From Hyphomicrobiales bacterium (GTDB lineage: Bacteria; Pseudomonadota; Alphaproteobacteria; Rhizobiales; Kaistiaceae): DNA of 64,000 nucleotides. A program made the position numbers and the translations under genes. The notes below the pieces were generated by a model. That model did not search any database. It had not been told where the DNA came from and saw only the letters and a list, made by a program, of their open reading frames with translations. This document shows positions 847 through 27,071 of the stretch, piece by piece. Location of the stretch: positions 434,001 to 498,000 of the forward strand of contig JAFKKF010000006.1 of assembly GCA_017305635.1 (NCBI GenBank). Reading direction: 5' to 3'. Every line of letters begins with the position of its first letter. Position 1 is the stretch's first letter.

Positions 847-3800
847 TTACGGCCTTTGTCGCGCGTGAATGTGCACCGTAGTCGAAGCCGTGCCGCATGC
901 AAGGCCGCTCGTGTCCGAGACGGTCAGCGTCACCGGATAGTCGCCCTCCGCCAGGAAGGTGTGGCGCACCCGCTCGCCGAGCTCGCTCGACCCGTCGCCG
1001 ATGGTCCAGCTATGGGCCAGCGCCTCGCCATCGGGGTCCCACGAGGCTGAGCCGTCGAGGAGCACCGCGTCGTTGGCGCCGCCGATGAAGACTTCGCGGT
1101 CCTTGCCGGCATCGGCCACCGGCGGCGCGTTCACCGCCACCATGGCCTCGTCGGTGACCGAGGAGCAGGTCGAGCCGGCATCGTCGGTGACAGTGAGCTT
1201 CACGCCGTAGGTGCCGGGCTTGGCGAAGGCGTGCCGGACTTTCTCGCCATCGAGCAGCGCGCCGTCGCCGAAGTCCCAGCGGTAGCGAATGAGCTTGCCG
1301 TCGGCATCCGCGGATCCGGAAGCATCGAACGTGACCGCCGAGCCGGGGCAGGCGCGCTGGTCGGGGCCGGCATCGGCATGCGGCGGCTGGTTGACGTGGA
1401 TCATGCCGGTCACCAATTGCCGGCTGTTGGCGAGGCCCCTGCCGTCATCCTCGAGGAGGCCGAGGCTGTAGCGGCCGGGTTTCAGGTAGGCGTGGGCGGC
1501 ATCGGCGGTAGCGGCCGTCGCGCCGTCGCCGAAGCTCCAGGCGTAGCTCGCGGCATTGCTGCCCGCCTTCCAGGCGACCCGTTCGCCGACGCAGGCGACC
1601 GCCGGCCCGCTGATCGCCGGCGCCGGCGGCGGGTTCACGGTGACCTTCACCCCGGCGCTCGCCACCGAATTGGCGAGGCCGGCGCCGTCATCGACGGTGA
1701 GCTTCGCCGCGTAGGTGCCGGGCGCGCGGTAGCGGTGGGCAGCGTGGATTCCGTCCGCCTTCTCGCCGTCGCCGAAATCCCAGTGATAGGCGTTGATGGC
1801 GCCATCGGCGTCGTGGGAGGCGGAGGCGTCGAAGACCGCCTCCTGGTCGACCGCCACGGCGCGATCGGCGCCGGCATCGGCGACCGGCGGGGCGTTGATG
1901 GTGATGAGGTGGCGGGCGGAGACCTCGCGGCAGGCCGGCGCTTCCGAATCGCTCGCCAGCGTGAGCGCCACCTGGTAGGTGCCGGGCTTCGCGTAGCGGT
2001 GGCTCGCCGTCGCGCCTTCGGCGCCGGTGCCGTCGCCGAAGTCCCAGTGCCAGCCGGTGATCCTGCCGCTCTCGGTGGTCGAGGCAGTGGCATCGAAGCC
2101 GGCATCGTCGCCGAGCGGCAGCGCCGCCGGTGCCTTGATCACGGCGACGGGGCCGGCGATCACGCGCACCGCGATCTCGGCGGTGGAGGCGGAATCGCAG
2201 ATGCCGATCTTCTCGCCCTCTATGCGCAGGAATGCCCGATAGGTGCCGGCCTTGTCGTAGATGTGCGAGGGCTTCTCGCCGCCGCCGACCGCGCCGTCGC
2301 CGAAGTCCCAGGCATAGCTGTTGACGACGCCGTCGACGTCGGTCGAGGCGGAGCCATCGAAGACCGTCTCGGTGCGGGCGCAGGCCAGGATGCTCGCCGG
2401 CGCGCGGGCAATCGGACCCTGGTCGACGCGGATCGCGATCTGCGCCGAGGCGCTGTCATTGGCGAGGCCCGAATCGTCCTTGACCGTCAGCGTCACCGGA
2501 TAGGTGCCGCCCTTCAGGTAGGTCTTGGTCGGATTGACGATGTCGGCGCCGGTCCCGTCGCCGAACGTCCAGGCATATTTGAGGACGCTGCCTTCCGGAT
2601 CGCGCGACTTCGACCCGTCGAGGACGACGATGTCGCCGGTGCAGACGCGCTTGTTCTCGCCGGCCACCGCGACCGGCGGGCGGTTGATGCGGACCGAGAT
2701 CGCGGCGGTCGCGGCCGCATTGGCGAGGCCGGTGCCGTCATCGACGGTGAGGATCACCGGATAGGTGCCGCCGGCGGCATAGGTATGGGCGATGACCGGC
2801 CCGCTGCCGGTGGCGCCGTCGCCGAAATTCCAGGCATAGGCGAGCGGGTTGCCATCGGCATCGACCGATTTCGTGCCGTCGAAGGTGACGGTCGAGGAGG
2901 CCGTCACGATGTCCGGGCCGGCATCGGCCACCGGCTGGTGGTTGACGGTGATGGTCACCGCGTCGGTGGCGAGCGCATTGGCGGCGCCGCTGTCGTCGGT
3001 CACCGTCAGGCGCGCGGTATAGACGCCGGGCTCCCTGAAGGTGCGCGTGACCTCCCTGCCTTCCAGCGGCTCGGACTGGTCGCTGAAGTCCCAGCGGTAG
3101 CCGATGATCTTGCCGTCGGTGTCATAGGAGCCGGCGGCGGAGAGATGGATCTCGGCGCCGGGCACGGAGGCGATTGCGGCGCCGGCATCGGCGACGGGTT
3201 GAGCGTTGATGAAGACGCTGGTCTCGGACCAGTCGACGGCGGCGGGCTGGCCGGTATTGTCGGCGACCTTCAGGCGGACGGCATAGGTGCCGGGCTTCTG
3301 GAAGGCGTGGCGCGCCATCTTGCCGGTCGCCGTCGTCCCGTCGCGGAAATCCCAGTCATATTCGGCGATCGAACCGTCGGGATCGAGCGAGCGGCCGGCA
3401 TTGAAGGTGAGCGCCTCGCCCGGCGCGCCGACGAGGTCGGGTCCGGCATCGGCGATGGGCACCGCGTTGACGATGACGGTAAGATGGTCCTCGGCGGTGT
3501 TGCGGATGGTCTTCGAGGCATCGGTGACGACGAGCTTCACGTCATAGGTGCCCGGGCGGTCATAGACGTGCTTCGGTTTCGGGCCGTCGCCGGTCTTGCC
3601 GTCGCCGAAATCCCAGGCATAGAGCGAAATGCTGTCGTCCTTGTCGCTGGAGGCCGAGCCGTCGAACTGGACCTCGCTGGCAGTGACCAGCTGGTCCGGT
3701 CCGGCGACCGCCACCGGCGGCTCGTTGACGCGCACGCTGGCGGCGTCGGAGACGGTCTTCGTCCGGGTGCCGGAATCGTCGGTGACCGTGAGGGTCGCGG

Positions 3801-6708
3801 TATAGGTGCCGGACCTGGCGTAGGCATGGGTGACCGTGGCGCCCGATGCCCTGGCGCCGTCGCCGAAGTCCCATTCATAGGCAACGAGCCTGCCGTCGCG
3901 GTCGAGGGAGCGTGTGCCGTCGAAGGTCAGTGCCTCGGCTATGGCGCCGGAAAGGTCCGGACCGGCATTCGGTACCGGCGGGTCGTTGACCGTGACGAAG
4001 AGGTGATCCTCGGCCGTGTTGCGGATGGTCTTAGAGGCATCGGTGACGGTGAGCTTCACGTCATAGATGCCGGGCTTCGCAAAGGCGTGGCTCGGCTTCG
4101 GTCCTTCGGCCTTCCCGCCGTCGCCGAAATCCCACTGGTAGAGCGCGATGCTGTCGTCCTTGTCGCTCGATGCCGAGCCGTCGAAGAAGGTCTCCTCGCC
4201 GATGGCGACACGCTGGCCGGGCCCGGCGGCCGCCACCGGCGGCTCGTTGACGCGCACCCTGGCGGTATCGGAGACCGACTTCGTCGCCGTGCCGGAATCG
4301 TCGGTGACGGTCAGCGTCGCGGTATAGGTGCCGGACTTGTCATAGGCGTGGGTCACCGTGGCGCCTGACGCCCTGGCGCCATCGCCGAAGTCCCAGTCAT
4401 AGGCGATGAGCTTGCCGTCGCGGTCGAGAGAATGGCTGCCGTCGAAGGTGAGCACCTCGTCGATCGCGCCCGAGAGATCCGGGCCGGCATTCGGCACGGG
4501 CGGGTCGTTGACCGTGACGAAGAGGTGGTCCTCGGCGGTGTTGCGGATGGTCTTCGAGGCATCGGTGACGATGAGCTTCACATCATAGATGCCGGGCTTG
4601 GCATAGGCGTGGCTCGGCTTCGCGCCCTCGGCGGTCGCGCCGTCGCCGAAATCCCACTGGTAGAGCGCGATGCTGTCGTCCTTGTCGCTCGATGCCGAGC
4701 CGTCGAAGAAGGTCTCCTCGCCGATGGCGACGCGCTGGTCGGGGCCGGCGGCGGCGACCGGCGGCTCGTTGACGCGCACCTTCAGCGTGTCGGAGACGCT
4801 CTCGGTCTTCGTCCCGGAATCGTCGGTGACCGTGAGGGTCACCGTATAGGTGCCCGACTTCTCGTAAGCGTGGGTGACCTTCCCCCCGCTTGCCTTCGCC
4901 CCGTCGCCGAAGTCCCATTCATAGGCGGTGATCCGGCCGTCACGGTCGAGCGAGGCGCCGCCGTCGAAGGCCAGCACCTCGGCAATCGCGCCGGACTGGT
5001 CGGCGCCGGCCTCGGGCACCGGCGGGTCGTTGACGATGACGGTGAGCTGATCGTCGGCGCCGCTATTGGCGACATTGGAATCGTCGGCGACGTGGAGCTT
5101 CACCGCATAGGTGCCGGCCTTCTCATAGGCGTGCTTCGCGACCTGTCCGGTTGCGGTGGCGCCGTCGCCGAAGTCCCAGGCATAGGCGCTGATCGAGCCG
5201 TCGGGATCGGAGCTCGCGCTTGCGTCGAGCGTGGTCTCCTCGCGAACCGCGATGCGGCGGTCGGCGCCGGCATCGGCGACCGGCGGGGCGTTGACGCGCA
5301 CGGTGAACTGCTCGCTCGCCGTATTGCAGGGATGGCCGGAATCGTCGGTCACCTTGTGGGTGACGGTATAGGTGCCGGGCTTCGCCCAGGCATGCTCGAC
5401 CCGGTCGCCGGTCGCCGACTGGCCGTCGCCGAAGTCCCAATCGTTCCGCGCCACCTTCCACTTGCTGGCGGTCGAGGGCGTTCCGTCGAAGGCGACCGTC
5501 TCGCCGGCGCCGAAGGAGATGCGCTTGTCAGACTTCGCGACGGGCGGGCGCTTGACGAAGACGGGGAGCGCCCTGGCGGCGCCGTTGCCGAAGAGCGGGC
5601 TGCCATCGGTCACTTCGAGGATGGCGGTGTAGTGCCCGTCCTCGGCATAGTCATGGGTCACGCTCGGACCGGTGGCGGTCGTGCCGTCGCCGAAGCGCCA
5701 ACGGAGGGCGAGCGGGGCGCCCTCCGGGTCGCTCGAGAGGCCGCCGGCAAAGCGCACGCTGGTGCAGCTTCCCATGGAATCCTGGAGCGCGACGGCCTGC
5801 GGCCGCGCGTTCAGCGGCAGGATGCGCGGCGGCAGCACGAAGGGGAGGAGCTTGCCGTCCTCTCCGATGACATAGAAGGTCGTGTCGTTCGGATATTCGC
5901 GGCCGCCGGAAATGGTGAGGGCTGCTTCCGTCGTATCGGCGGGCAGCTCGACCGTGGTCTCCTTCCAGTCGCCCTGGCCGGAGGCGACGAGCGGATAGGT
6001 GACGAACCTGGTGTCGAGGTTCACCGTGCCGAAGGCGGCGTCGAAATTGCCGACCTTCACCTCCTTCGTTCCAGGCGGGACGAGGAACTTCACCTCGGTC
6101 AGCACGCCGCGGCTCGGCATGCGCACGGTCGGCGAATAGGAGAAGACCTGCAGGCCGGCGGGCGCGACATTGGCGTCGGCGGCCGTGCTCATGGTGACGT
6201 CGAAGACGTTGCCGTTGACGCCGGTCAGCGCATCGACGAGCAGGCGGAAGACGATGCGGTCGCCGGCCGGCGTGCCCTGGCCGGGATCGAGCTCGGCGAT
6301 GGTCTGCCAGGTATCGTCCACCTTGCGGTCGCGGCGGAAGGTCTTCTCGCCGAGAAGCGTGCCGGCGGTCATCTCGTCCTTCGACAGTTCCTGCGGCCCG
6401 GCCGCGCCCGGCACGAAGGCGCCCGGCCCGCCGAAGACGGCGAAGCGGGTCGCCGTGGTCAGGTAGCGCTTGTCGACCTGGTCATGGGCGCCGCCGGTAT
6501 CGGGATCGAAGACGCGCAGGTAGAGCTTGCCCGCGGTCGCCGCCGGCACGCTCAGATAGATCACCTGGTGGTGGTCGTTGTCGCCCTGCTTCGGCGTCGC
6601 CCATTTGCCGTAGTTGATGAGCGCCGGCGCGTCGCCGGGCGTGTCGGCGCCGGTGGCAGGGGCCACGGCTGCGAGGAGGACCAGACCGGCGGCGAGGGAC
6701 TTACGCAT
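847..6708 (-). CDS. Giant exported protein with about 19 tandem PKD-like repeats
   Basis: The start chosen is the ATG opening MRKSLAAGLVLLAAVAPATG, a good Sec signal peptide; an upstream in-frame ATG would add 33 residues with no such character. The mature protein (about 1,930 residues) has an N-terminal domain of about 300 residues that I do not recognise, then 19 consecutive PKD-like beta-sandwich repeats of about 80-88 residues. Their landmark is YxWDFGDG, followed by HxYxxxGxYxVxLxVxD and an NxPPVADAG linker. Repeat 11 (WDFSDQ) and repeat 19 (WTIGDG) are the most degenerate. PKD domains usually mediate protein-protein or polysaccharide contacts outside the cell; no enzyme domain or membrane anchor was seen. 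The gene lies 31 bases after the LysM/FecR gene and 21 before the Cache sensor, so all three are probably one transcript. A scaffold or ligand-binding part of an envelope-sensing system is an inference. Confidence 0.9.
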   Translation of the reverse strand: MRKSLAAGLVLLAAVAPATGADTPGDAPALINYGKWATPKQGDNDHHQVIYLSVPAATAGKLYLRVFDPDTGGAHDQVDKRYLTTATRFAVFGGPGAFVPGAAGPQELSKDEMTAGTLLGEKTFRRDRKVDDTWQTIAELDPGQGTPAGDRIVFRLLVDALTGVNGNVFDVTMSTAADANVAPAGLQVFSYSPTVRMPSRGVLTEVKFLVPPGTKEVKVGNFDAAFGTVNLDTRFVTYPLVASGQGDWKETTVELPADTTEAALTISGGREYPNDTTFYVIGEDGKLLPFVLPPRILPLNARPQAVALQDSMGSCTSVRFAGGLSSDPEGAPLALRWRFGDGTTATGPSVTHDYAEDGHYTAILEVTDGSPLFGNGAARALPVFVKRPPVAKSDKRISFGAGETVAFDGTPSTASKWKVARNDWDFGDGQSATGDRVEHAWAKPGTYTVTHKVTDDSGHPCNTASEQFTVRVNAPPVADAGADRRIAVREETTLDASASSDPDGSISAYAWDFGDGATATGQVAKHAYEKAGTYAVKLHVADDSNVANSGADDQLTVIVNDPPVPEAGADQSGAIAEVLAFDGGASLDRDGRITAYEWDFGDGAKASGGKVTHAYEKSGTYTVTLTVTDDSGTKTESVSDTLKVRVNEPPVAAAGPDQRVAIGEETFFDGSASSDKDDSIALYQWDFGDGATAEGAKPSHAYAKPGIYDVKLIVTDASKTIRNTAEDHLFVTVNDPPVPNAGPDLSGAIDEVLTFDGSHSLDRDGKLIAYDWDFGDGARASGATVTHAYDKSGTYTATLTVTDDSGTATKSVSDTARVRVNEPPVAAAGPGQRVAIGEETFFDGSASSDKDDSIALYQWDFGDGGKAEGPKPSHAFAKPGIYDVKLTVTDASKTIRNTAEDHLFVTVNDPPVPNAGPDLSGAIAEALTFDGTRSLDRDGRLVAYEWDFGDGARASGATVTHAYARSGTYTATLTVTDDSGTRTKTVSDAASVRVNEPPVAVAGPDQLVTASEVQFDGSASSDKDDSISLYAWDFGDGKTGDGPKPKHVYDRPGTYDVKLVVTDASKTIRNTAEDHLTVIVNAVPIADAGPDLVGAPGEALTFNAGRSLDPDGSIAEYDWDFRDGTTATGKMARHAFQKPGTYAVRLKVADNTGQPAAVDWSETSVFINAQPVADAGAAIASVPGAEIHLSAAGSYDTDGKIIGYRWDFSDQSEPLEGREVTRTFREPGVYTARLTVTDDSGAANALATDAVTITVNHQPVADAGPDIVTASSTVTFDGTKSVDADGNPLAYAWNFGDGATGSGPVIAHTYAAGGTYPVILTVDDGTGLANAAATAAISVRINRPPVAVAGENKRVCTGDIVVLDGSKSRDPEGSVLKYAWTFGDGTGADIVNPTKTYLKGGTYPVTLTVKDDSGLANDSASAQIAIRVDQGPIARAPASILACARTETVFDGSASTDVDGVVNSYAWDFGDGAVGGGEKPSHIYDKAGTYRAFLRIEGEKIGICDSASTAEIAVRVIAGPVAVIKAPAALPLGDDAGFDATASTTESGRITGWHWDFGDGTGAEGATASHRYAKPGTYQVALTLASDSEAPACREVSARHLITINAPPVADAGADRAVAVDQEAVFDASASHDADGAINAYHWDFGDGEKADGIHAAHRYRAPGTYAAKLTVDDGAGLANSVASAGVKVTVNPPPAPAISGPAVACVGERVAWKAGSNAASYAWSFGDGATAATADAAHAYLKPGRYSLGLLEDDGRGLANSRQLVTGMIHVNQPPHADAGPDQRACPGSAVTFDASGSADADGKLIRYRWDFGDGALLDGEKVRHAFAKPGTYGVKLTVTDDAGSTCSSVTDEAMVAVNAPPVADAGKDREVFIGGANDAVLLDGSASWDPDGEALAHSWTIGDGSSELGERVRHTFLAEGDYPVTLTVSDTSGLACGTASTTVHIHARQRP
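3471..5033 (-). repeat. Three tandem copies of a two-PKD unit of about 520 bp
   Basis: Inside the PKD gene, repeats 4-9 are alternating A/B modules. The A modules share SLDRDG and GDGA[RK]ASG; the B modules share SASSDKDDSI and SKTIRNTAEDHL. The same DNA landmark recurs at 3502, 4021 and 4543, a period of 519-522 bp (173-174 codons). Copies run at about 5033-4512, 4511-3990 and 3989-3471 and are far more alike than the flanking repeats. This points to recent in-frame duplication of a two-domain unit. Confidence 0.85.
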
Positions 6709-6739
6709 ATTGACCAGGATCCGTTGGTTGTCGCGGTCG

Positions 6740-9085
6740 CTACTGGATGTCGAAGACCTTGCGGTTGCCGGCATCGTCTTCGAGCTCGATTCGGCTGAGG
6801 CGGGCAAAAGGTATGTCGTCGGCGGGCACCTGCAGCGTGCCCTGGTAGAGCTTCGCCGGACGGTTGTAGCGAAGGTATCCGGTGTAGGTCTTGTCGCCTG
6901 CGGTGACGGTGACCGGCGCCGCCTTGGCGAGACCGGAGGCGTCCTCGGCGACGACCTCCACGGTCAGCGCCGGCACGCCGCCATTGGCGCCGATCGCCAT
7001 GGCGGTGGAGACGAGCTTGGGCGGGTCGGCGTCGAGCTTCACGCTCGACTTGTCGAGGGTGACGTTGCCGGCGACGTCGGTGGCGGTCAGCTCGATGAGA
7101 TTGTCGCCGGCGACAAGCGTGACGATCTCGTCGAAGCGTCCGTCCCGCAGCGCGACCGGCCTGCCGTTGATCGAAAGGGTCGCGCCCGGCTCGGTGCGGC
7201 CGGCGACGTGGAGCGCCGTCTCCGAGGTGAGCTGCGGCAGGAACTCGTCGAGCGTGATTTCCGGCGGCGTGCGGTCGGCGGTGGCGGTGAAGTCCTCGGT
7301 CGTCGTGAAGCCCGAGGGCGCGATCACGGCGAAGGTGAGCTTGCCGCCTTCGCCGGCGACCGGCACGTTGACGTGGAAGATGCCGCCGGCGTCGGCAACG
7401 GCGGAAGCGCGCACGGCGGCGCCGTCGCGAATCTCGATGGCCGCGTTCGGCGTCGTCCGGCCGGCGAGCGAGAGCGTGTCGCTGCTGGTGACGAAGTGGA
7501 GCGGGGCGATCGCCTTGACCGTCGCATCGAAGGCGACGAGCGAGGCCTCGTCGGGCGTGTAGGTGAAGAGGCGTTCGCGCGTGGTCTTGTTGCCGGCCGG
7601 ATCGGTGGCGACGAGGGTGAGCCGGTTGGCGCCTTCGGCCGCGGTGAGCGCGACGCCGTAGGTGCCGTCCTTGCCGATCGGGACGGCGGCGCCGTTCACG
7701 GTCAGCGTGGCGCCGGGCTCGCTCTCGCCGGTCACCTCGACCTCGGCCTTCCTCAGGATCGCGCCCTCCGCCGGCGCGTCGATCTTGAGGAAGGGCGGGG
7801 TGTCGTCGGGCGAGACGGTGAAGCGGTGGACCGGGCTGCGCGCGCCGGGCAGGCCGAACTGGTCGAGGGCGGAGACGCGCCAGTAATAGTCGCCGACCGG
7901 CAGCGGCCCGACCTTGTCCTTGGTGCCGTCGAGGCCGAAGCCGTTGGCGACCACCTTCTCGAAGCGCTGGTCGGCGGCGACTTCCAGCCAGTAGCCGGCG
8001 GCGCCGTCGACCGGCCCCCAGGCGATCTCCGGCTCGGTCACGAAGACCGGGCCTTCGTTCGCTGGCGCGAGCGGGGCCGGTGCCGGCAGGACCGCCACGG
8101 CCTCGCGGGGCTTGGCGCCCTTGCCGACGATGGTGCCCTCGTTCCTGCCGAGGATGACCTGGTCGCCGCCGGCGGAGACCTTGACGACCTTGTCGTCGTA
8201 ATTGGTGAACTTGGCGCCGCCCTTGCCGTTCGACACCCAGAAGTCGCCGGAATCGATGCTTGCCGAGACCTGAGGTATGTCGACGGTGAACTTCGTCCGG
8301 TCCTTGTCATCGTTGAGGACGGCGTAGAAATCGCCTTCGACGAGGCTCACCTTCGCCTCCTGCGTCTTCTGCAGCGGGTCGAAGCGCATCTCCTTGATGA
8401 TGGCATTGGAATTGGCGTTGAGCCGCAGCCGGCTGGCGTCGCGGAAGGTGATCTGCGCGGTCGAGTCGGAAAGGGTGCGCACCTTCTCCTCCTCGATCAG
8501 CACGGCGCGGAGGGCGAGGTCGCGCCAGGACAGGTCTTCCGGCCGCTGGCCCTCGACATTGCCGGCGCGGTCGGAGACGAGGGCCTCGGCGGCGATGTCG
8601 CGCTGCGCCTCGGCCTTGGTGAGCGCCGTCACCGCCTCCTCGAAGGAGGCGAGCGCCAGCTCCTTCGTCGCGGTCCATTGCCGGGCAAGACGCTGGACGA
8701 GGGCCTTCTCATGCAGGTCGACGGCGCGGCCGATCTCGTCCGGCGCGAAGATCTGGGCGCCGGCGGCATTGGCCTTCTGGATCTGGCCGAGGGCCTCGAT
8801 CAGCGCCTTGTTGGCCGACGAGATCTCGTTGACCGGGATCGTCAGCTCCATGCCGGGATGGAGATCGGCGACGGAGTGGATGCCCGAGCTCTTCAGGATT
8901 TCCGGCCAGAGGTCGGGGTCGCTCAGGTACTTGTCTGCAACCTCGCGGATGGTCTGGTCGCTGCCGATCACGACGGTGATCGTCTCTTCCGCCGCGCGCG
9001 CAAGCGTCGCCGGGCCGACCGCGGTTGTGGTAATCACCGCGGAGACCAGGAGATTCAGTGCCGCCCTGCATATCCCGCGGAGCAT
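6740..9085 (-). CDS. Exported LysM-FecR-Ig-like protein
   Basis: The start is an ATG giving MLRGICRAALNLLVSAV..., a signal peptide ending near ARAAEE; a TTG four codons upstream is the alternative. Neither has a clear Shine-Dalgarno. Domains in order: a LysM-like motif just after the signal (IREVADKYLSDPDLWPEI, then LHPGMELTIPV); a helical stretch; a FecR-type domain at about 190-320 (ITFRDASRLRLNANS, VSLVEGDFYAVL, ASIDSGDFWVS); a fibronectin-like segment with YYWRVSALD; then Ig-like modules marked by GATLTVNG, GATLSINGR and LVATDPAGN. LysM normally holds a protein on peptidoglycan, and FecR domains sense or relay signals in the periplasm. It is the first gene of an operon with the PKD-repeat protein and the Cache sensor. 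A structural or sensing role at the wall is inferred; no enzyme motif was seen. Confidence 0.85.
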   Translation of the reverse strand: MLRGICRAALNLLVSAVITTTAVGPATLARAAEETITVVIGSDQTIREVADKYLSDPDLWPEILKSSGIHSVADLHPGMELTIPVNEISSANKALIEALGQIQKANAAGAQIFAPDEIGRAVDLHEKALVQRLARQWTATKELALASFEEAVTALTKAEAQRDIAAEALVSDRAGNVEGQRPEDLSWRDLALRAVLIEEEKVRTLSDSTAQITFRDASRLRLNANSNAIIKEMRFDPLQKTQEAKVSLVEGDFYAVLNDDKDRTKFTVDIPQVSASIDSGDFWVSNGKGGAKFTNYDDKVVKVSAGGDQVILGRNEGTIVGKGAKPREAVAVLPAPAPLAPANEGPVFVTEPEIAWGPVDGAAGYWLEVAADQRFEKVVANGFGLDGTKDKVGPLPVGDYYWRVSALDQFGLPGARSPVHRFTVSPDDTPPFLKIDAPAEGAILRKAEVEVTGESEPGATLTVNGAAVPIGKDGTYGVALTAAEGANRLTLVATDPAGNKTTRERLFTYTPDEASLVAFDATVKAIAPLHFVTSSDTLSLAGRTTPNAAIEIRDGAAVRASAVADAGGIFHVNVPVAGEGGKLTFAVIAPSGFTTTEDFTATADRTPPEITLDEFLPQLTSETALHVAGRTEPGATLSINGRPVALRDGRFDEIVTLVAGDNLIELTATDVAGNVTLDKSSVKLDADPPKLVSTAMAIGANGGVPALTVEVVAEDASGLAKAAPVTVTAGDKTYTGYLRYNRPAKLYQGTLQVPADDIPFARLSRIELEDDAGNRKVFDIQ

Positions 9086-10896: not shown

Positions 10897-11031
10897 GCGC
10901 CCCCTCCACCGGCTTCGCCGGTCCCCCTCCCCCGTAAACGGGGGAGGAACCTCCCTCACCTGGCGCGCGATCTGGTTCCTCCCCTGCGAAGCGGGGGAGG
11001 GGGACCATGCGAAGCATGGTGGAGGGGGCGC
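10897..11031 (+). repeat. Miniature hairpin repeat, copy 1, with 14-bp terminal inverted repeats
   Basis: The element begins GCGCCCCCTCCACC and ends with the exact reverse complement GGTGGAGGGGGCGC. Inside are nested hairpins: ACCGGCTTCGCCGGT, CCTCCCCCGTAAACGGGGGAGG-like, CCTCCCCTGCGAAGCGGGG, and ACCATGCGAAGCATGGT. It fills the betB-betA gap. Three more copies in the same orientation lie downstream in this window. Confidence 0.9.
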
Positions 11032-14371: not shown

Positions 14372-14508
14372 GCGCCCCCTCCACCGCCCTGTGGGCGGTC
14401 CCCCTCCCCCGTAAACGGGGGAGGATCCTCCCTCATCACGGACGCGACCTGGTTCCTCCCCTGCGAAGCGGGGGAGGGGGACCATGCGAAGCATGGTGGA
14501 GGGGGCGC
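14372..14508 (+). repeat. Miniature hairpin repeat, copy 2
   Basis: Same element as copy 1: GCGCCCCCTCCACC at the left, GGTGGAGGGGGCGC at the right, with the CCCGTAAACGGG and CCTGCGAAGCGGGG hairpins in the same order. The first small hairpin differs (CCGCCCTGTGGGCGG). It lies between choX and choW, where an RNA hairpin could lower permease expression relative to the binding protein. Confidence 0.9.
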
Positions 14509-15382: not shown

Positions 15383-16563
15383 TGGCCGCGGTCGAGTTCC
15401 GCAACGTCGACATCGTCTTCGGGCAGGCGCTCGCGGGCGCCCTCGCCATGCTCGACCGCGGCGCCGGCCGCGACGAGGTGATCGCGGCGACGCAATGCGT
15501 GCCCGGCGCGATCGACGTGAACCTCAAGGTCGAGCGCGGCGAGATCTGCGTGCTGATGGGCCTGTCGGGCTCGGGCAAGTCGACGATCCTGCGCGCCATC
15601 AACCGCCTCAACACGGTGGCGCGCGGTTCGGTCTCCGTCGAGTTCGAGGGCCGCCGGATCGACGTCACCACCTGCGATGCGGCGACGCTCCGCGATCTGC
15701 GCATGCGCGCCGTCGCCATGGTGTTCCAGCAATTCGCGCTGCTGCCGTGGCGGACGGTGCGGGAGAATGTCGGCTTCGGCCTCGAGATCCGTGGCATGCC
15801 GGCGACGGATCGGGCGCGGATCGTCGACGAGAAGCTGGCGCTGGTCGGCCTCTCCGGCTGGGCCGACAAGTTCTCGCACGAATTGTCCGGTGGCATGCAG
15901 CAGCGCGTCGGGCTCGCCCGCGCCTTCGCCACCGATGCCGACATCCTCCTCATGGACGAGCCCTTCTCGGCGCTCGACCCGCTGATCCGCGACAAGCTGC
16001 AGGACGAACTGCTCGAGCTCCAACGCCGATTGAAGAAGACCATCGTCTTCGTCTCCCACGACCTCGACGAGGCGCTGAAGCTCGGCAACACGATCGCGAT
16101 CCTCGAAGGCGGGCGCGTGGTGCAGAACGGGACGGCGGAGGACATCCTGCTCCGTCCGGCCAATGCCTATGTGGCCGAGTTCGTGAAGCACATGAATCCG
16201 CTGAACGTGCTCCGCGGCACCTCGGTCATGACGCCGGCTTCAGCCTTGCCGCGAGAGGATGGGCACGTGCTCATCGCCGATGGCGCCATCCGCATCCGCG
16301 TCGATGCCGAGGAGCGTCCGGTCGGTGCGGTCCTCAACGGGCGCGAGGCGCGCCTCGCCACCACCGATGCCGAGACCGGCGAGCTCACCGCAGCCGATTC
16401 CGACATGATCATCGCGCCGGTCGACCTGACGCTCCGCGCCGCCATCGCGCTGAAGAGCCGGACCGAGCACCCGATCCTGCTGGTCGACCAGCTCGGCCGC
16501 CTCGCCGGGCTGTGCGGCCACGAGGAGATCTATTCGGGGCTCTTGCGGAGGGACCGGGGGTGA
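15382..16563 (+). CDS. choV: Choline ABC transporter, ATP-binding protein with CBS-like tail
   Basis: The ATPase of the ChoXWV importer, 393 residues from the ATG that overlaps the choW stop (an in-frame ATG 18 bases upstream is the alternative). Walker A is GLSGSGKST, the Q-loop MVFQQFALLPWRT, the signature LSGGMQQRVGLARA, Walker B DILLMDEPFSALD, and the switch His is in VSHDLDEALKL. The C-terminal 110 residues (DLTLRAAIALKSRTEHPILLVD) resemble the CBS-like regulatory tail of OpuA/ProV ATPases, which sense ionic strength in that family. Just after the stop begins a miniature hairpin repeat. Confidence 0.92.
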   Translation: MAAVEFRNVDIVFGQALAGALAMLDRGAGRDEVIAATQCVPGAIDVNLKVERGEICVLMGLSGSGKSTILRAINRLNTVARGSVSVEFEGRRIDVTTCDAATLRDLRMRAVAMVFQQFALLPWRTVRENVGFGLEIRGMPATDRARIVDEKLALVGLSGWADKFSHELSGGMQQRVGLARAFATDADILLMDEPFSALDPLIRDKLQDELLELQRRLKKTIVFVSHDLDEALKLGNTIAILEGGRVVQNGTAEDILLRPANAYVAEFVKHMNPLNVLRGTSVMTPASALPREDGHVLIADGAIRIRVDAEERPVGAVLNGREARLATTDAETGELTAADSDMIIAPVDLTLRAAIALKSRTEHPILLVDQLGRLAGLCGHEEIYSGLLRRDRG

Positions 16564-16572
16564 CCGCGTCGG

Positions 16573-16692
16573 GCGCCCCCTCAGTCGGCTTCGCCGACAG
16601 CTCCCCCGTAAACGGGGGAGCATCCGGAGAGGCCGCGGATCCTCCCCTGCGAAGCGGGGGAGGGGGACCGCCGAAGGCGGTGGAGGGGGCGC
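16573..16692 (+). repeat. Miniature hairpin repeat, copy 3, left flank of the DUF559 gene
   Basis: Begins GCGCCCCCTC and ends GAGGGGGCGC, with hairpins AGTCGGCTTCGCCGACA, CTCCCCCGTAAACGGGGGAG and CCTGCGAAGCGGGG inside. Over about 120 bases it differs from copy 4 at only two positions (near 16640), so these two are the most recent pair. Confidence 0.9.
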
Positions 16693-16726
16693 ATGAAGGG
16701 CGCGACGGCGCCGGGGGCCCTGCCTG

Positions 16727-17245
16727 ATGCGCGCGCCGAAGAAAACCTTTGCCCGGGCGCGTCGGCTGCGCGGAGAGATGAGCCTTCCCGAAGTGCTGCT
16801 TTGGCGCGTCCTGCGGGGAAGTCGCGTCGGGGATCTGCGCTTCCGTCGGCAGCATCCGGTGGGACCGTACATTCTCGACTTCTACTGCGCGTCGCATCGA
16901 CTGGCGGTAGAGGTCGATGGTGCCGGACATGACTTCGGGCAGCGTGCGTTTCATGATGAGCGTCGGGGAGCTTGGCTGAGCCGTCAGGGCGTCCGCATCG
17001 TCCGCCTTCGCGCAGCCGATGTCCTCGACGAAGCCAATCTCGATAACGTTGTCGGCGCGATCCTCGTTGCTGCGGGCGCCCCCTCAGTCGGCTTCGCCGA
17101 CAGCTCCCCCGTAAACGGGGGAGCATCCGGAGAGGCCGCAGGTCCTCCCCTGCGAAGCGGGGGAGGGGGACCGCCGAAGGCGGTGGAGGGGGCGCCGGAC
17201 GGCCTCCGCAATTCCCAGTCGGCCACCAAGGAACTCACACCATGA
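16727..17245 (+). CDS. DUF559 (Vsr-like) endonuclease-domain protein
   Basis: Residues about 10-115 match the DUF559/very-short-patch-repair-like nuclease fold: RARRLRGEMSLPEVLLWRVL, then LRFRRQHPVGPYILDFYC and LAVEVDGAGHDF, which carry the D...ExDG...H arrangement of the PD-(D/E)XK active site, and a closing VRIVRLRAADVL. The domain ends near NVVGAILVAAGA. The remaining 50 or so residues are read through copy 4 of the hairpin repeat and end in a TGA overlapping the ATG of the next gene, so they are probably an accident of the repeat. The gene stands alone between choV and a betaine-pathway gene, flanked on both sides by almost identical repeats in direct orientation. Its biochemical role is unknown; a nuclease acting on the repeats is inference. 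Confidence 0.8.
   Translation: MRAPKKTFARARRLRGEMSLPEVLLWRVLRGSRVGDLRFRRQHPVGPYILDFYCASHRLAVEVDGAGHDFGQRAFHDERRGAWLSRQGVRIVRLRAADVLDEANLDNVVGAILVAAGAPSVGFADSSPVNGGASGEAAGPPLRSGGGGPPKAVEGAPDGLRNSQSATKELTP
17076..17195 (+). repeat. Miniature hairpin repeat, copy 4, right flank of the DUF559 gene
   Basis: Almost identical to copy 3 (two substitutions in about 120 bases) and in the same orientation, so the pair forms direct repeats around the DUF559 gene. The DUF559 reading frame stays open through the whole element, which therefore supplies the protein's tail. Confidence 0.9.
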
Positions 17246-22006: not shown

Positions 22007-22512
22007 GCGTATTCTTCCGCCGCCTCGCGCAACAGCCCCTCGACGTAGGGCGCGAAGGAGCGCCAGACCTCGATGCGGAACCCATCCGCCGCCGTCCGCC
22101 AGAGCACGATCTCGGCCTTGGCGAAGACCGTGCGCGTGCACATGCCGACCGGGAATGCCTCCGGGTGGAGGTCGAGCGGATTGAAGGCGTTGACCACCGT
22201 CGCCGCCCGCGGCCCGCCGACCGAGAGGGCGACCTGCCGGTCGGATATGTCGACGACGCTTGCCGGTGCTCCCGTCAGGGCCGCGCCGATCTCGGAAGCG
22301 ATCCGCTCGCCGTCGCCGTCGGGGGCAAGCAGCAGCCATTCGTCTGGTCCCAGCCAGAGGGCAGCGCGCGGCGGCACGGACGCGGCGCGGCAGGCATCGC
22401 GGGGCAGGGCGACGCCGAAAGCGCGGCCGATCAGCGGGATCGCCGCCTCGCCGCCGCGCACGACGAAACGCGTCGCGGGAGGCAGCGTGGTGATGGTGAC
22501 GAGTTCAGCCAT
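22003..22512 (-). CDS. soxG: Sarcosine oxidase gamma subunit
   Basis: The 169-residue small subunit of heterotetrameric sarcosine oxidase. Characteristic segments are LWLGPDEWLLL, VVDISDRQVALSVGGPRA and VFAKAEIVLWR. The gamma subunit has no cofactor of its own and stabilises the complex. Its ATG lies 8 bases inside the end of soxA, so it is the last gene of soxBDAG and translationally coupled. Length is slightly short of typical (about 180-200) but the core is complete. Confidence 0.88.
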   Translation of the reverse strand: MAELVTITTLPPATRFVVRGGEAAIPLIGRAFGVALPRDACRAASVPPRAALWLGPDEWLLLAPDGDGERIASEIGAALTGAPASVVDISDRQVALSVGGPRAATVVNAFNPLDLHPEAFPVGMCTRTVFAKAEIVLWRTAADGFRIEVWRSFAPYVEGLLREAAEEYA

Positions 22513-25500
22513 CCAGCCGCTTGCCCTCCGGATCGTAGAAGACCGGATCGGTCACCGTCGCCTCCTGCGCCGTGCCGTCCAGCGCCGGCACGAAGAGCTT
22601 CATCCCCTTCCGCGCGCGGCCGCCGGAAACGAGGGCGAGCGCGATCGACCGGCCGAGCGCGGCGCTCGCATAGGAAGACGTCACGTGGCCGAGCATCCTC
22701 ATCGGCACCGGCGCGTTCGGGTCCTCGACGACCTGCGCGCCTTCCTCCAGTGTCACCTTCGGATCGGTAGCCAGCAGCCCGACCAGCTGCTTGCGGTCGG
22801 CGAGCTGCATGTCGGGGCGGGCCAGCGAGCGCTTGCCGACGAAATCCGGCTTCGTCTTGCCGATCATGCCGTCGAGGCCGAGGTCGGCCGGGATCACCGT
22901 GCCGTCGCTCTCCTGGCCGACGATGATGTAGCCCTTCTCGGCGCGGAGCACGTGCATCGTCTCGGTGCCGTAGGGCGCGATGCCGTGCGCCTGGCCGGCG
23001 GCATGGACGGCCTCCCACACGGCGCGGCCGTGGCGGGCCGGCACGTTGATCTCGAAGCCGAGCTCGCCGGTGAAGCTGACGCGGAACAGCCGCGCCGGAA
23101 CGCCGGCGACCTTGCCGAGCCGAACGCTCATGTGGGGCATGGCGTCCCGCGCGATGTCGATGCCGTCGACCAGCGACACGATGACGTCGCGCGCCTTCGG
23201 CCCCTGCACGGCGATGACCGCCCATTGCTCGGTGGTCGAGGTCAGCCAGACCTTGAGGTCCGGGAACTCGGTCTGGAGATAGTCCTCCATGTGGTGAAGG
23301 ACACGCGGCGCGCCGCCGGTCGTGGTGGTGACGTGGAAGCGGTCCGGCGCCAGGCGCCCGACGACGCCGTCATCCATGATGAAGCCGGCCTCGGTCAGCA
23401 TCAGGCCGTAGCGGCAGCGGCCCGGCTCGAGCTTGGTCCAGGCATTGGTGTAGAGGCGGTTCATGAACTCCGCCGCATCGGGGCCGACGACCTCGATCTT
23501 GCCGAGGGTCGAGGCATCGAAGATGCCTGCGCCCTCGCGCACCGCGCGGCACTCGCGCGCGACCGCTTCGTGCATGTCCTCGCCGGCCTTCGGGAAATAC
23601 CAGGCGCGTTTCCAGAGCCCGACATCCTCGAAGACGGCGCCGTTCTCCGCCGCCCAGGAATGGATCGGCGTCCGGCGCACCGGCTCGAAGAGGTCGCCGC
23701 GCGCGGCGCCGGCGATCACGCCGAAGGTCACCGGCGTATAGGGCTGGCGGAAGGTCGTGGTGCCGACGGCGGGCACGGCCTTGCCCAGTGACGTGGCGAC
23801 GAATTCCAGCGCCGTCATGTTCGACGTCTTGCCCTGGTCCGTCGCCATGCCGGTGGTCGTGTAGCGCTTGACGTGCTCGATGGAGCGGAAGCCCTCGCGC
23901 AGCGCCAGCGCCAGGTCTTTCACCGTCACGTCGTTCTGGAAATCGACGAAGGCGCGCTTGGGGATCTTCCGCCTGGGCAGCGCCCCCTCACCCGCCACAT
24001 CCCGGCCCCGCTCCGCATCGCCCGGCTGGGACGACCTCTCGCCACCGGGAAGAGGGGCGGCCGGCGCATCGCCTGAAACGGTGGCGGAAACAGCCGGGCT
24101 TCGTCTCGCCGCTGCCGCGGCTTCCCTTCCCGCCGCGTGTCCTTCCCCGATGCAGGCGTCGAGCTCGTAGGTGCCGCGGCAGCCGCCGGCCGAGCGTTCG
24201 CGCTGCGCCGAGGTGCCGGGCACGAAGGCGCCGAGCGCCTCGTCGTAGCGGAGCTTGCCGCGCGACTGGGAGAAGAGATGCACGGCGGGAGTCCAGCCGC
24301 CGGACATGAGGATGAGGTCGCAGCTGACATGGTCCTCGGGACCGCCGCCGACGGGCGCGAGCCGCGCCGAGTGGACGCGGCGGCGCCCCTCGGTGCCGAT
24401 GATGGTGGTTGCCGGATGCACCACGATGCCGGCCGCGCGTGCCGCATCGACCAGCGGCCCGGGAGGCGCGGCGCGGGTGTCGGCGATCGCCGCGATCGCG
24501 ATGCCGGCAGCGGCGAGGTCGAGCGCCGCACGGTAGGCGGAGTCACCATCGGTGATGACTACCGCGCGCGTGCCCGGCCTGACGCCGTATCGGTTGAGGT
24601 AGGTGCGCGCCGCCTCGGCGAGCATGATGCCCGGCCGGTCGTTCTGCGGAAAGGCGAGCGGGCGCTCGATGGCGCCGGCGGCGAGCACCACCTCCTTCGC
24701 CCGCACCTGCCACAGTCTTTCGCGAGGCTGGCGTGCTCCGGGGGCGGCGAGGTGATCGGTGATGCGCTCGGCGAGGCCGACGAAATTATGCGCGAAATAG
24801 CCGAAGCCCGTGGTGCGCGGAAGAACGACCGCGTCGCGACGGCCAAGGGCAGCGAGCGATTCCGCGATCCACTCCGTCGCGGCCTTGCCGTCGATGGTCG
24901 CCCCGGGATCGTGGAGGAGCGAGCCGCCAAATTCCGGCTGCTCGTCGCAGAGGATCACCCGCGCGCCCGCCTCGGCGGCGGCCAGCGCCGCGGCGATGCC
25001 GGTCGGCCCGCCGCCGATGACCAGCACGTCGCAATGGGCATAGAGCTGCGCATAGCGGTCGGGATCGGGCGCCTTCGGCGCGCGGCCGAGGCCGGCGCTG
25101 CGGCGGATCGCCGGCTCATAGACCTTCGCCCAGAAGCTCCGCGGCCACTTGAAGGTCTTGTAGTAGAAGCCCGCCGGGAAGAGCGGCGAGAGCAGGTCGT
25201 TGACCGCGCCGAGGTCGCGCTTCAGCGACGGCCAGCGGTTCTGGCTGATGGCGGTGAGGCCCTCGTAGATCTCGACCTGGGTGGCGCGCAGGTTCGGCAC
25301 CTCGCGGCCGCCGCCGCGGTCGACCGTGACGAGGGCGTTCGGCTCCTCGGCGCCGGCGGCGACGATCCCGCGCGGGCGGTGGTACTTGAACGAGCGGCCG
25401 ACGAGATGGACGCCGTTGGCGAGCAGCGCCGAGGCGAGCGTGTCGCCGGCCTGGCCGGTGTAGGCCATGCCGTCGAAGGTGAAGCGGATCGGCTTCCCAC

Positions 25501-25540
25501 GGTCGATCCGCCCGCCGGCGGGAGTGCGGAAGGGGGTCAC
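22505..25540 (-). CDS. soxA: Sarcosine oxidase alpha subunit
   Basis: The alpha subunit (1,011 residues) that binds NAD and tetrahydrofolate and helps convert sarcosine to glycine, 5,10-methylene-THF and peroxide. The start is a GTG whose bases overlap the soxD stop (GTGA); the frame stays open upstream through soxD, but that part is not SoxA. Domains: an N-terminal 2Fe-2S-like fold (FTFDGMAYTGQAGDTLASALL), a NAD/FAD domain (VLVIGGGPTGIAAALAAAEAG, ILMSGGWTPAVHL), and a GcvT-like domain from about 580 to the end (FDASTLGKIEVVGPDA, GELGFEINVPARHG). Between them, residues about 476-521 are a Pro/Gly/Arg-rich linker, part of which is encoded by a hairpin repeat inserted in frame. FVDFQNDVTVKDL then resumes the family pattern. 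Confidence 0.92.
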   Translation of the reverse strand: MTPFRTPAGGRIDRGKPIRFTFDGMAYTGQAGDTLASALLANGVHLVGRSFKYHRPRGIVAAGAEEPNALVTVDRGGGREVPNLRATQVEIYEGLTAISQNRWPSLKRDLGAVNDLLSPLFPAGFYYKTFKWPRSFWAKVYEPAIRRSAGLGRAPKAPDPDRYAQLYAHCDVLVIGGGPTGIAAALAAAEAGARVILCDEQPEFGGSLLHDPGATIDGKAATEWIAESLAALGRRDAVVLPRTTGFGYFAHNFVGLAERITDHLAAPGARQPRERLWQVRAKEVVLAAGAIERPLAFPQNDRPGIMLAEAARTYLNRYGVRPGTRAVVITDGDSAYRAALDLAAAGIAIAAIADTRAAPPGPLVDAARAAGIVVHPATTIIGTEGRRRVHSARLAPVGGGPEDHVSCDLILMSGGWTPAVHLFSQSRGKLRYDEALGAFVPGTSAQRERSAGGCRGTYELDACIGEGHAAGREAAAAARRSPAVSATVSGDAPAAPLPGGERSSQPGDAERGRDVAGEGALPRRKIPKRAFVDFQNDVTVKDLALALREGFRSIEHVKRYTTTGMATDQGKTSNMTALEFVATSLGKAVPAVGTTTFRQPYTPVTFGVIAGAARGDLFEPVRRTPIHSWAAENGAVFEDVGLWKRAWYFPKAGEDMHEAVARECRAVREGAGIFDASTLGKIEVVGPDAAEFMNRLYTNAWTKLEPGRCRYGLMLTEAGFIMDDGVVGRLAPDRFHVTTTTGGAPRVLHHMEDYLQTEFPDLKVWLTSTTEQWAVIAVQGPKARDVIVSLVDGIDIARDAMPHMSVRLGKVAGVPARLFRVSFTGELGFEINVPARHGRAVWEAVHAAGQAHGIAPYGTETMHVLRAEKGYIIVGQESDGTVIPADLGLDGMIGKTKPDFVGKRSLARPDMQLADRKQLVGLLATDPKVTLEEGAQVVEDPNAPVPMRMLGHVTSSYASAALGRSIALALVSGGRARKGMKLFVPALDGTAQEATVTDPVFYDPEGKRLDG
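23980..24060 (-). repeat. In-frame miniature repeat inside soxA
   Basis: This stretch begins GCGCCCCCTC and closes with GAGGGGCGG, near-inverted ends like those of the intergenic repeats. Inside is a hairpin, CCTCTCGCCACCGGGAAGAGG. At 81 bp it is exactly 27 codons and reads, on the soxA strand, as APLPGGERSSQPGDAERG and so on, a Gly/Arg/Pro/Glu-rich run typical of translated alphaproteobacterial palindromic repeats. It sits in the interdomain linker, where an insertion would be tolerated. Confidence 0.7.
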
Positions 25541-25818
25541 CGCGGAATCTCCGGCCGCTTCTGGCCCGCCTTGTAGGAGGCGACGAACCTGTCGCTGACC
25601 GTGTCGCGGGCGGCGTTGAAGAAGCGCCCGCAGCCGTGGATGTGGCGCCAGCGCTCGAAGTGCAGGCCCTTTGGATTGTCGCGGAGGTAGAGGTAGCTCG
25701 CCCAGTCCTCGTCGCTGAGCTCGGCCGGCCTTTGGGCGCGCTCGATATGCGCCGGACCGGCATAGCGGAACTCGATCTCGGGCCGATCGCCGCAATGGGG
25801 GCAGGGAACGATCAGCAT
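25537..25818 (-). CDS. soxD: Sarcosine oxidase delta subunit
   Basis: A 93-residue zinc-binding subunit. The known zinc ligands of the family fall in place: Cys6 and Cys9 (VPCPHCGDRPEIEF), His59 and Cys63 (HIHGCGRFFN). It starts at an ATG inside the soxB stop (TGATG) and ends inside the soxA GTG (GTGA). These overlaps on both sides fix its limits, and longer frames here are extensions into soxB sequence. Order B-D-A-G is the standard soxBDAG operon. Confidence 0.95.
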   Translation of the reverse strand: MLIVPCPHCGDRPEIEFRYAGPAHIERAQRPAELSDEDWASYLYLRDNPKGLHFERWRHIHGCGRFFNAARDTVSDRFVASYKAGQKRPEIPR

Positions 25819-27071
25819 CAGTGGGCCACCGCGGCGGCCGCCGCTTCGTCGATGAGGCGACCGGTGCGGAAGCGGTCGAGGGTGAAGGGCGCGGCGATCG
25901 GGTGGGGCTCGCCCCGCGCAACCGTGGCGGCGAAGACATGGCCAGAGCCCGGCGTCGCCTTGAAGCCGCCCGTGCCCCAGCCGCAATTGACGTAGAGGCC
26001 GGCGACCGGCGTCAGCCCGATGATCGGCGAGCGGTCGGGCGTCACGTCGACGATGCCGCCCCAGTTGCGGAGCATCCGCATCCGCCGGAATTCCGGGAAG
26101 AGTTCGCAGATCGCGTCGAGCGTGTGCTCGGCGACGTGCAGCCCGCCGTTCTGGCTGTAGGAGACATAGGCGTCGGTGCCGGCGCCGATGACCAACTCGC
26201 CCTTGTCCGACTGCGAGATGTAGGCGTGCACGCTGTTCGACATGACCACGCAGGGGAAGACCGGCTTCACCGGTTCGGAAACCAGCGCCTGGAGCGGATA
26301 GCTTTCGATCGGCATGCGCACGCCCGCCATGGCCATGACGACGCTCGTGTGGCCCGCGGCGACGACGGCGACCTTCTTCGCGCCGATGAAGCCGCGTGTC
26401 GTGTCGCAGCCCGTCACGGCACCGTCCGCACCCCGTCTCAGGCCCGTCACCTCGCAGTTCTCGATGATGTCCACCCCCATCCCGTCGGCGCCGCGAGCAT
26501 AGCCCCAGGCGACGGCATCATGGCGGGCGGTGCCCCCGCGGCGCTGCAGAGCGGCGCCGGTCACCGGGTAACGGATGTTCCTGCCGATGTTGAGCGGAGG
26601 ACAGAAGCGCTTCGCCTCCTCCGGCGACAGCCATTCGTTGTCGATTCCGTTCAGGCGGTTGGCGTAGATATGCCGTTTCAACACCTGGTTGTCATGGACC
26701 GAGTGCGCGAGCATCATGACGCCGCGCGGCGAATACATGACGTTATAGTTAAGCTCCGCTGAAAGACCTTCCCAAAGCTTCAGCGCATGCTCATAAATTG
26801 CGGCGCTTTCGTCCTGGAGGTAGTTGGAGCGGATGATGGTGGTGTTGCGGCCGGTATTGCCGCCGCCCAGCCAGCCCTTCTCCAGGACGGCAACGCTCTG
26901 AATCCTATGTTCTTTTGCGAGATAGTACGCGGTCGCGAGGCCGTGGCCGCCGGCGCCGACGATGACGACGTCATATTCCCGCCTGGGCTCGGGCGAACGC
27001 CATTGCCGCGGCCAATTCCTGTGGCCGGACAAGGCGTTACGGGCAAGCGAGAAGATCGAATAGCGGGACAT
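25818..27071 (-). CDS. soxB: Sarcosine oxidase beta subunit
   Basis: The 417-residue catalytic subunit, oxidising sarcosine with FAD and handing electrons to FMN. The FAD motif is [21 protein letters not shown] (about 35-55). [20 protein letters not shown] and [12 protein letters not shown] are signature SoxB segments. His184 in [13 protein letters not shown] occupies the region where the family attaches FMN covalently. The C-terminus has [17 protein letters not shown] and [16 protein letters not shown], closing the flavin site. It is the first gene of soxBDAG; its product would yield glycine, ending the choline route seen in this window. Confidence 0.95.

Follow-up and report, generated by a model that had tools for sequence, protein, structure and literature searches.

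DUF559 nuclease genes inside matched hairpin pairs suggest a very small mobile element in Kaistiaceae and other proteobacteria

Among the described systems, the REPtron comes close to the locus considered here. It consists of a single RAYT gene, coding for a Y1 HUH enzyme, between inverted palindromic repeats (REP/REPIN) that lie mostly in intergenic DNA; many gene-less copies are dispersed, and the repeat type is matched to the gene lineage. This mechanism is known for GTAG REPs (PMC2817692, PMC3733652). The CGTC REP families of alphaproteobacteria are dispersed palindromes for which a 2013 survey found no dedicated transposase (PMC3733652). Miniature elements of the MITE type are likewise short and gene-less, with inverted ends and positions near genes. 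On the side of the enzymes, the repair nuclease Vsr, the VsrA protein of Caulobacter (CCNA_02930), which is a stand-alone protein with a DUF559 domain, and the EDxHD homing endonuclease I-Bth0305I are the relevant comparisons. The accessible text of the VsrA study reports no flanking repeats (PMC12907096), and no report linking DUF559, COG2852 or PF04480 to repeats was found in the open-access literature.

The locus lies in a window of 64,000 nucleotides, the whole stretch of DNA analysed, and all coordinates are positions in that window on the forward strand. A DUF559 nuclease ORF of 172 aa, PD-(D/E)XK-like and predicted to have a Vsr/EDxHD fold, occupies 16727-17245 on the + strand (PF04480, E = 1e-27), with the domain itself at 16745-17068 (C20:450745-451068 in contig coordinates). 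It is bracketed by two 120-bp hairpin repeats, termed R1, at 16573-16692 and 17076-17195 (both +), which are directly oriented, 503 bp from start to start, and differ at two positions only (16637 G/A and 16639 A/G in coordinates of the left copy). A choV-like ABC ATPase gene ends at 16563 on the left, and an FAD/GCV_T dehydrogenase gene starts at 17242 on the right. The sequence-only reading had described the repeat pair in these terms and had placed the unit between choV and the next betaine gene; both descriptions hold, as does its mention of two further copies in the same orientation nearby, which are dispersed solo R1 units without gene upstream of the DUF559 gene at 14372-14508 and 10897-11031 (both +). 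An Rfam scan of the window gave no match. A long sarcosine-oxidase-alpha-like ORF of 1144 aa is located at 22505-25939 (-) within the betaine degradation cluster.

The ends of the R1 repeat are inverted (GCGCCCCCTC / GAGGGGGCGC), and each repeat is a mirrored pair of arms with the tails outward, in which an arm comprises a GC-rich tail (GCGCCCCCTC) and two hairpins. The right arm of the left unit (16640-16692, +) reads hairpin, hairpin and GGAGGGGGCGC tail toward the gene, and this 53-bp arm is common to all units. Folding of the R1 unit as DNA gives four short hairpins, two per arm (-49.9 kcal/mol), in place of the three internal hairpins counted earlier. The strict arm motif, GGGGAGGGGGACCN{7,13}GGTGGAGGGGG, with its window instance at 16657, has 92 copies in the own genome (G000), where the motif read backwards occurs 0 times. 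The flanking pair is 98% alike, the best other genomic copy reaches 94%, and most full-length copies are ~80% alike.

The DUF559 unit shares with the REPtron the single gene between inverted palindromic repeats, the mostly intergenic location, the many gene-less dispersed copies and the matching of repeat type to gene lineage. It would function in the manner of a REPtron without being one, as it has neither a Y1 enzyme nor a GTAG tag. In place of a Y1 HUH enzyme it encodes a DUF559 nuclease of the PD-(D/E)XK-like kind (PF04480), its arms are larger and consist of one or two hairpins and a G-rich tail, and RAYTs are absent from the host family. R1 resembles the CGTC REPs in being a dispersed palindrome with no dedicated transposase known, but neither the CGTC tag nor the 8-9 bp stem format is present; because the tag is absent, R1 is a parallel to the CGTC repeats and not a proven answer to them. 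With MITEs the R1 units have in common that they are short and gene-less, end in inverted repeats and lie near genes; no related DDE transposase was recognised for them, nor was a target-site duplication at the diverged junctions compared.

The predicted structure of the window DUF559 protein (pLDDT 88.6) matches the fold of a Neisseria endonuclease-like protein (3hrl, Z 14.7), I-Bth0305I (3r3p, Z 11.8, with a sequence-profile match of E 1e-3) and Vsr (1cw0, Z 10.3; 1vsr, Z 9.3). TnsA of Tn7 is a distant fold match, with a Z of 6.8 that is inside the range of common folds. Invariant catalytic-type residues in the DUF559 homologues are E22, D51, E62, D64 and H68, and the model suggests that the likeness to I-Bth0305I comprises both the catalytic-domain fold and these conserved acidic and histidine residues. 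Unlike I-Bth0305I, DUF559 is present without intron, intein or extra DNA-binding domain and is situated between dispersed hairpin repeats in intergenic spacers; homing by it is putative. The common fold also extends to VsrA. This is in contrast to the genomic setting, in which no cytosine methyltransferase stands beside the window gene, whose immediate neighbours are the ATPase and the dehydrogenase, and in which the repeat association is the defining feature. Most homologous DUF559 pairs tested have a dN/dS of 0.06-0.16, so the protein is maintained and the gene is under purifying selection; the recent pair in G015 has a dN/dS of 0.29, resting on very few changes. Two degraded DUF559 copies, one frameshifted (G006:C19:53270-53577) and one with an in-frame stop (L196), still have inverted arms on their flanks.

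The DUF559 ORF of the window reads through the right-hand R1 repeat, with the last ~59 codons beyond the domain and mostly inside the repeat. The repeat-coded tail seen in the sequence-only reading is present as an open frame, but it is peculiar to the window copy: the ORF continues past the domain for 177 nt here versus 24-27 nt in the closest family homologues (G001, G005). As a functional feature the tail was rejected, since it is not conserved among these homologues.

The own genome contains three DUF559 genes, each next to hairpin repeats of a different type. Two of the genes have repeats on either side, and the third has them solely on its 5' side. Across 28 Kaistiaceae genomes, matching repeats were found on both sides of 45/56 stand-alone DUF559 genes versus 5/275 controls, and matching flank repeats were present at 66 of the 79 named alphaproteobacterial loci, which come from Sphingomonas, Caulobacter, Brevundimonas, Phenylobacterium, Mesorhizobium and others. 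A pooled strict test, with genes whose two spacers each measure 80 bp or more as controls, found flank-to-flank repeats at 109/135 stand-alone DUF559 genes versus 1/115 controls (p = 4e-44). The single control match is a crude-caller ORF inside the gene of a tandem-repeat PKD-like protein, namely the 1986-aa protein with many tandem PKD-like repeats at 847-6807 (-) of the window. Inverted arms are present at 108/135 DUF559 loci; their inner ends are ~28 bp from the domain, and the outer span from arm to arm has a median of 488 bp. About 20% of the DUF559 genes have no matching flank repeats, and three large proteins with a DUF559-like domain have no such repeats on their flanks.

In a phylum-wide sample that includes non-alphaproteobacteria, DUF559 genes frequently border on repeats that read CCCTCACCCC..CCCTCTCCC-loop-GGGAGAGGG, and similar repeats of hairpin and tail adjoin DUF559 in other proteobacterial classes. 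In Caulobacter vibrioides DSM 9893 (L177), a DUF559 gene is located between CCTCCCCC..GGGGGAGGTGTCGGCGAAGCCGACGGAGGGGG arms, and the unit is therefore present in a laboratory-model species. In the relative G007, of which about half of the genome (1.6 Mb) was covered in 20-kb stretches, all eight DUF559 genes adjoin dispersed repeats with 1-62 places, versus a control median of 0. One-sided repeat adjacency alone is nevertheless modest evidence, because 26% of the spaced control genes of G007 also adjoin repeats with 5 or more places (p = 0.001).

The repeat type follows the DUF559 lineage and not the genome. Across genera, similarity of the DUF559 proteins correlates with similarity of their flank repeats with a Spearman coefficient of 0.49 (shuffled, 0 +/- 0.018), a value for which each non-family locus was counted as its own genus and which hence includes some same-genus pairs; removal of pairs with similar neighbourhoods leaves 0.48. 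In a comparison among siblings within a genome, from which shared-neighbourhood pairs were removed and which is independent of genus counting, the flank resembles that of the nearest foreign homologue over those of the siblings by 41:6 (p = 2e-7). A single repeat family for all DUF559 genes was rejected in view of the three flank types in the own genome, which amends the earlier reading with its one family; each DUF559 lineage has a repeat of its own. Such co-variation of gene and flank can arise, at least partly, from linkage alone.

The result with dispersed copies goes beyond linkage, and is partly confounded by phylogeny. Among 389 genomes across the class, the R1 motif is present in 6/7 genomes with a window-type DUF559 (a match of at least 130 bits) versus 3/382 others (Fisher p = 1e-10, kinship ignored). 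All nine genomes with the motif have some DUF559 match, and in one of them, G162, two inverted R1 arms precisely enclose a DUF559. Another motif, GAGAGGGN{1,3}GGGGTGAGGG, is found in 68/130 genomes with a strong DUF559 versus 16/267 without (p = 4e-25, kinship ignored). G006 and G007 have R1-like copies, but no R1-type DUF559 and no DUF559 flanked by R1, and the sole DUF559 of G006 is frameshifted and of another type. G150 contains a window-type DUF559 and lacks the exact R1 motif. In the phylum sample, flank type and genome copy number of the TGAGGG motif are only weakly related (p = 0.04).

Comparison of filled and empty sites bears on movement of the unit. DUF559 units are found at unrelated sites, with similarity ending just outside the arms (G008 vs G010, G003 vs G004, and three copies in G005). 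G015 has a 944-bp unit at two places, 94% identical, and the flanks of one of these sites (G015:C3) are joined directly in G022 and G025. The glcE-glcF junction measures a few bp and has no repeat in four sister-genus species, and is compact in a fifth genome; it is filled with DUF559 and arms in G014, G015, G020 and the own genome. Likewise, the metF-metH junction is a short bare spacer in several species and contains arm-DUF559-arm in three. Since the empty junctions at both loci are devoid of the repeat, gene and arms arrived together. A third site lacks the gene in G023 but retains a single arm of the right type there, while no arm is present in G013 and G026. No target-site duplication is evident by eye between filled and empty states of metF-metH and glcE-glcF, where the junctions are too diverged for such a duplication to stand out.

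The choV-dmgdh junction, where the sequence-only reading had hoped for a clean empty site, did not provide one, as G007 and G006, without DUF559 there, carry other, unrelated hairpins; gene-less and repeat-less junctions came from the other loci instead. The palindromic repeats in this spacer in G007 (G007:C1:23638-23875; L123) and in G006 (G006:C21; L062) are mutually unrelated, and the repeat in G006 looks to be of the GTAGGGCGGGTTAGC type. The metF-metH junction of G016 and G023 (L252, L253) contains an apparent small type II toxin-antitoxin pair, Phd/YefM-like and PIN-type. With this pair in two species and arm-DUF559-arm in three sister species, the junction looks like an insertion hot spot. 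At glcE-glcF, an unrelated small gene of ~520 bp is found in G026, G013, G016, G023, G017 and G019 (L242-L247).

Several explanations of the association must be weighed. It could reflect ordinary hairpin terminators or repeat-rich spacers, with DUF559 genes merely sitting in long spacers that accumulate hairpin repeats, and indeed about a quarter of the wide-spacer genes in G007 have a dispersed repeat of some kind next to them, on one side or both. The strong form of this explanation is refuted by the 1/115 matching pairs among controls with equally defined spacers, and lineage specificity is not expected from it, which makes it very improbable. Mobilisation of the repeats by a RAYT or other HUH transposase, among whose repeats DUF559 landed by chance, would draw on the mechanism established for GTAG REPs (PMC2817692, PMC3733652). 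Nevertheless, the Y1 transposase domain (PF01797) is absent from the own genome and 26/27 relatives, the one genome left having a 40-position fragment that contains a stop. RAYTs absent from 27/28 genomes cannot explain the repeats there and were rejected as mobilisers for Kaistiaceae; the R1 unit sequence has neither GTAG nor CGTC tags, and DUF559 genes are associated with repeats far more often than other genes are. We regard this explanation as scarcely credible.

A linked passenger is the more serious rival. DUF559 would then be a Vsr-like repair or defence nuclease, and the repeats, spread by other means, would provide homology for transfer of the gene and be co-inherited with it in the absence of functional interaction. 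The functional tie of Caulobacter VsrA to a cytosine methyltransferase, with a proposed part in very-short-patch repair as a mismatch-repair nuclease (PMC12907096), is in line with such a role, as is the capacity of linkage to produce gene-flank co-variation. Against it, unlinked dispersed R1 copies track R1-type DUF559 across the 389 genomes, gene and arms reach new sites jointly, and no other mobilising gene was seen, RAYTs being absent in the family in a search aimed at Y1_Tnp; on balance we consider the passenger unlikely. A free-standing homing endonuclease that targets a gene-less repeat and copies itself in by double-strand-break repair, leaving the repeats unmoved, is suggested by the fold and profile relation to I-Bth0305I. 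The single arm of fitting type that G023 retains at the orthologous site without the gene and the closer resemblance of the flanking direct copies to each other than to other genomic copies, which fits recombination between repeats, point the same way. However, the empty glcE-glcF (five genomes) and metF-metH (several genomes) junctions carry no repeat, and the dispersal of gene-less copies is left unexplained, so that homing only is quite improbable.

We consider it fairly probable that the DUF559 gene and the surrounding hairpin repeats form one mobile unit, in which the nuclease cuts its cognate arms and spreads them in the manner of a REPtron. At the level of sequence, comparison among genomes establishes the association of gene and arms, its lineage specificity, the insertion of whole units into sites bare in relatives, purifying selection and the lack of RAYTs in Kaistiaceae, and the status of gene and arms as a unit is well supported; movement of the repeats by the nuclease is what we infer. 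The element would comprise one gene, for a nuclease of the Vsr/EDxHD fold, enclosed by inverted hairpin arms whose outer ends are typically ~450-600 bp apart, with gene-less copies of the arms dispersed in large number through the genome. The nuclease may recognise its cognate hairpin/tail sequence and cut or nick the arm, either as an extruded hairpin or as duplex, after which break repair or recombination would copy arm-gene-arm units to new sites, and gene-less arm pairs could be copied in trans. Such an element would operate like RAYT/REP with an unrelated enzyme and by a homing-like mechanism; we know of no strand-transfer activity for a single-domain nuclease. The RAYT-like role that the sequence-only reading had proposed for DUF559 is supported by comparison, in that DUF559 genes of relatives are flanked by repeats far beyond chance and R1 is not equally abundant where the matching DUF559 is missing, the two points on which that reading had said it could fail, while mobilisation by the nuclease stays conjectural.

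DUF559 nuclease genes inside matched hairpin pairs suggest a mobile element that is very small, so far undescribed and powered by a DNA-cutting enzyme outside the known transposases. The association ties a widespread family of genes without assigned function, lineage by lineage, to the dispersed hairpin repeats of its bacteria, and it offers an alternative or a supplement to reading DUF559 in Caulobacter as a Vsr-like repair enzyme. It is possible, at a confidence that we would put just short of even, that nucleases of the DUF559/Vsr fold supply the enzyme missing so far for a very large class of palindromic repeats in proteobacteria. Each lineage would cut its own hairpin arms and in this way copy both arm-gene-arm units and gene-less arm pairs, as one-gene elements of ~0.45-1 kb that contain neither transposase nor recombinase nor reverse transcriptase. 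Should the nuclease move its repeats, the purpose of many DUF559 genes would be explained, a major class of bacterial repeats would gain its enzyme, and the units would be among the smallest autonomous mobile elements; once shown to do so, such an element would be categorically new.
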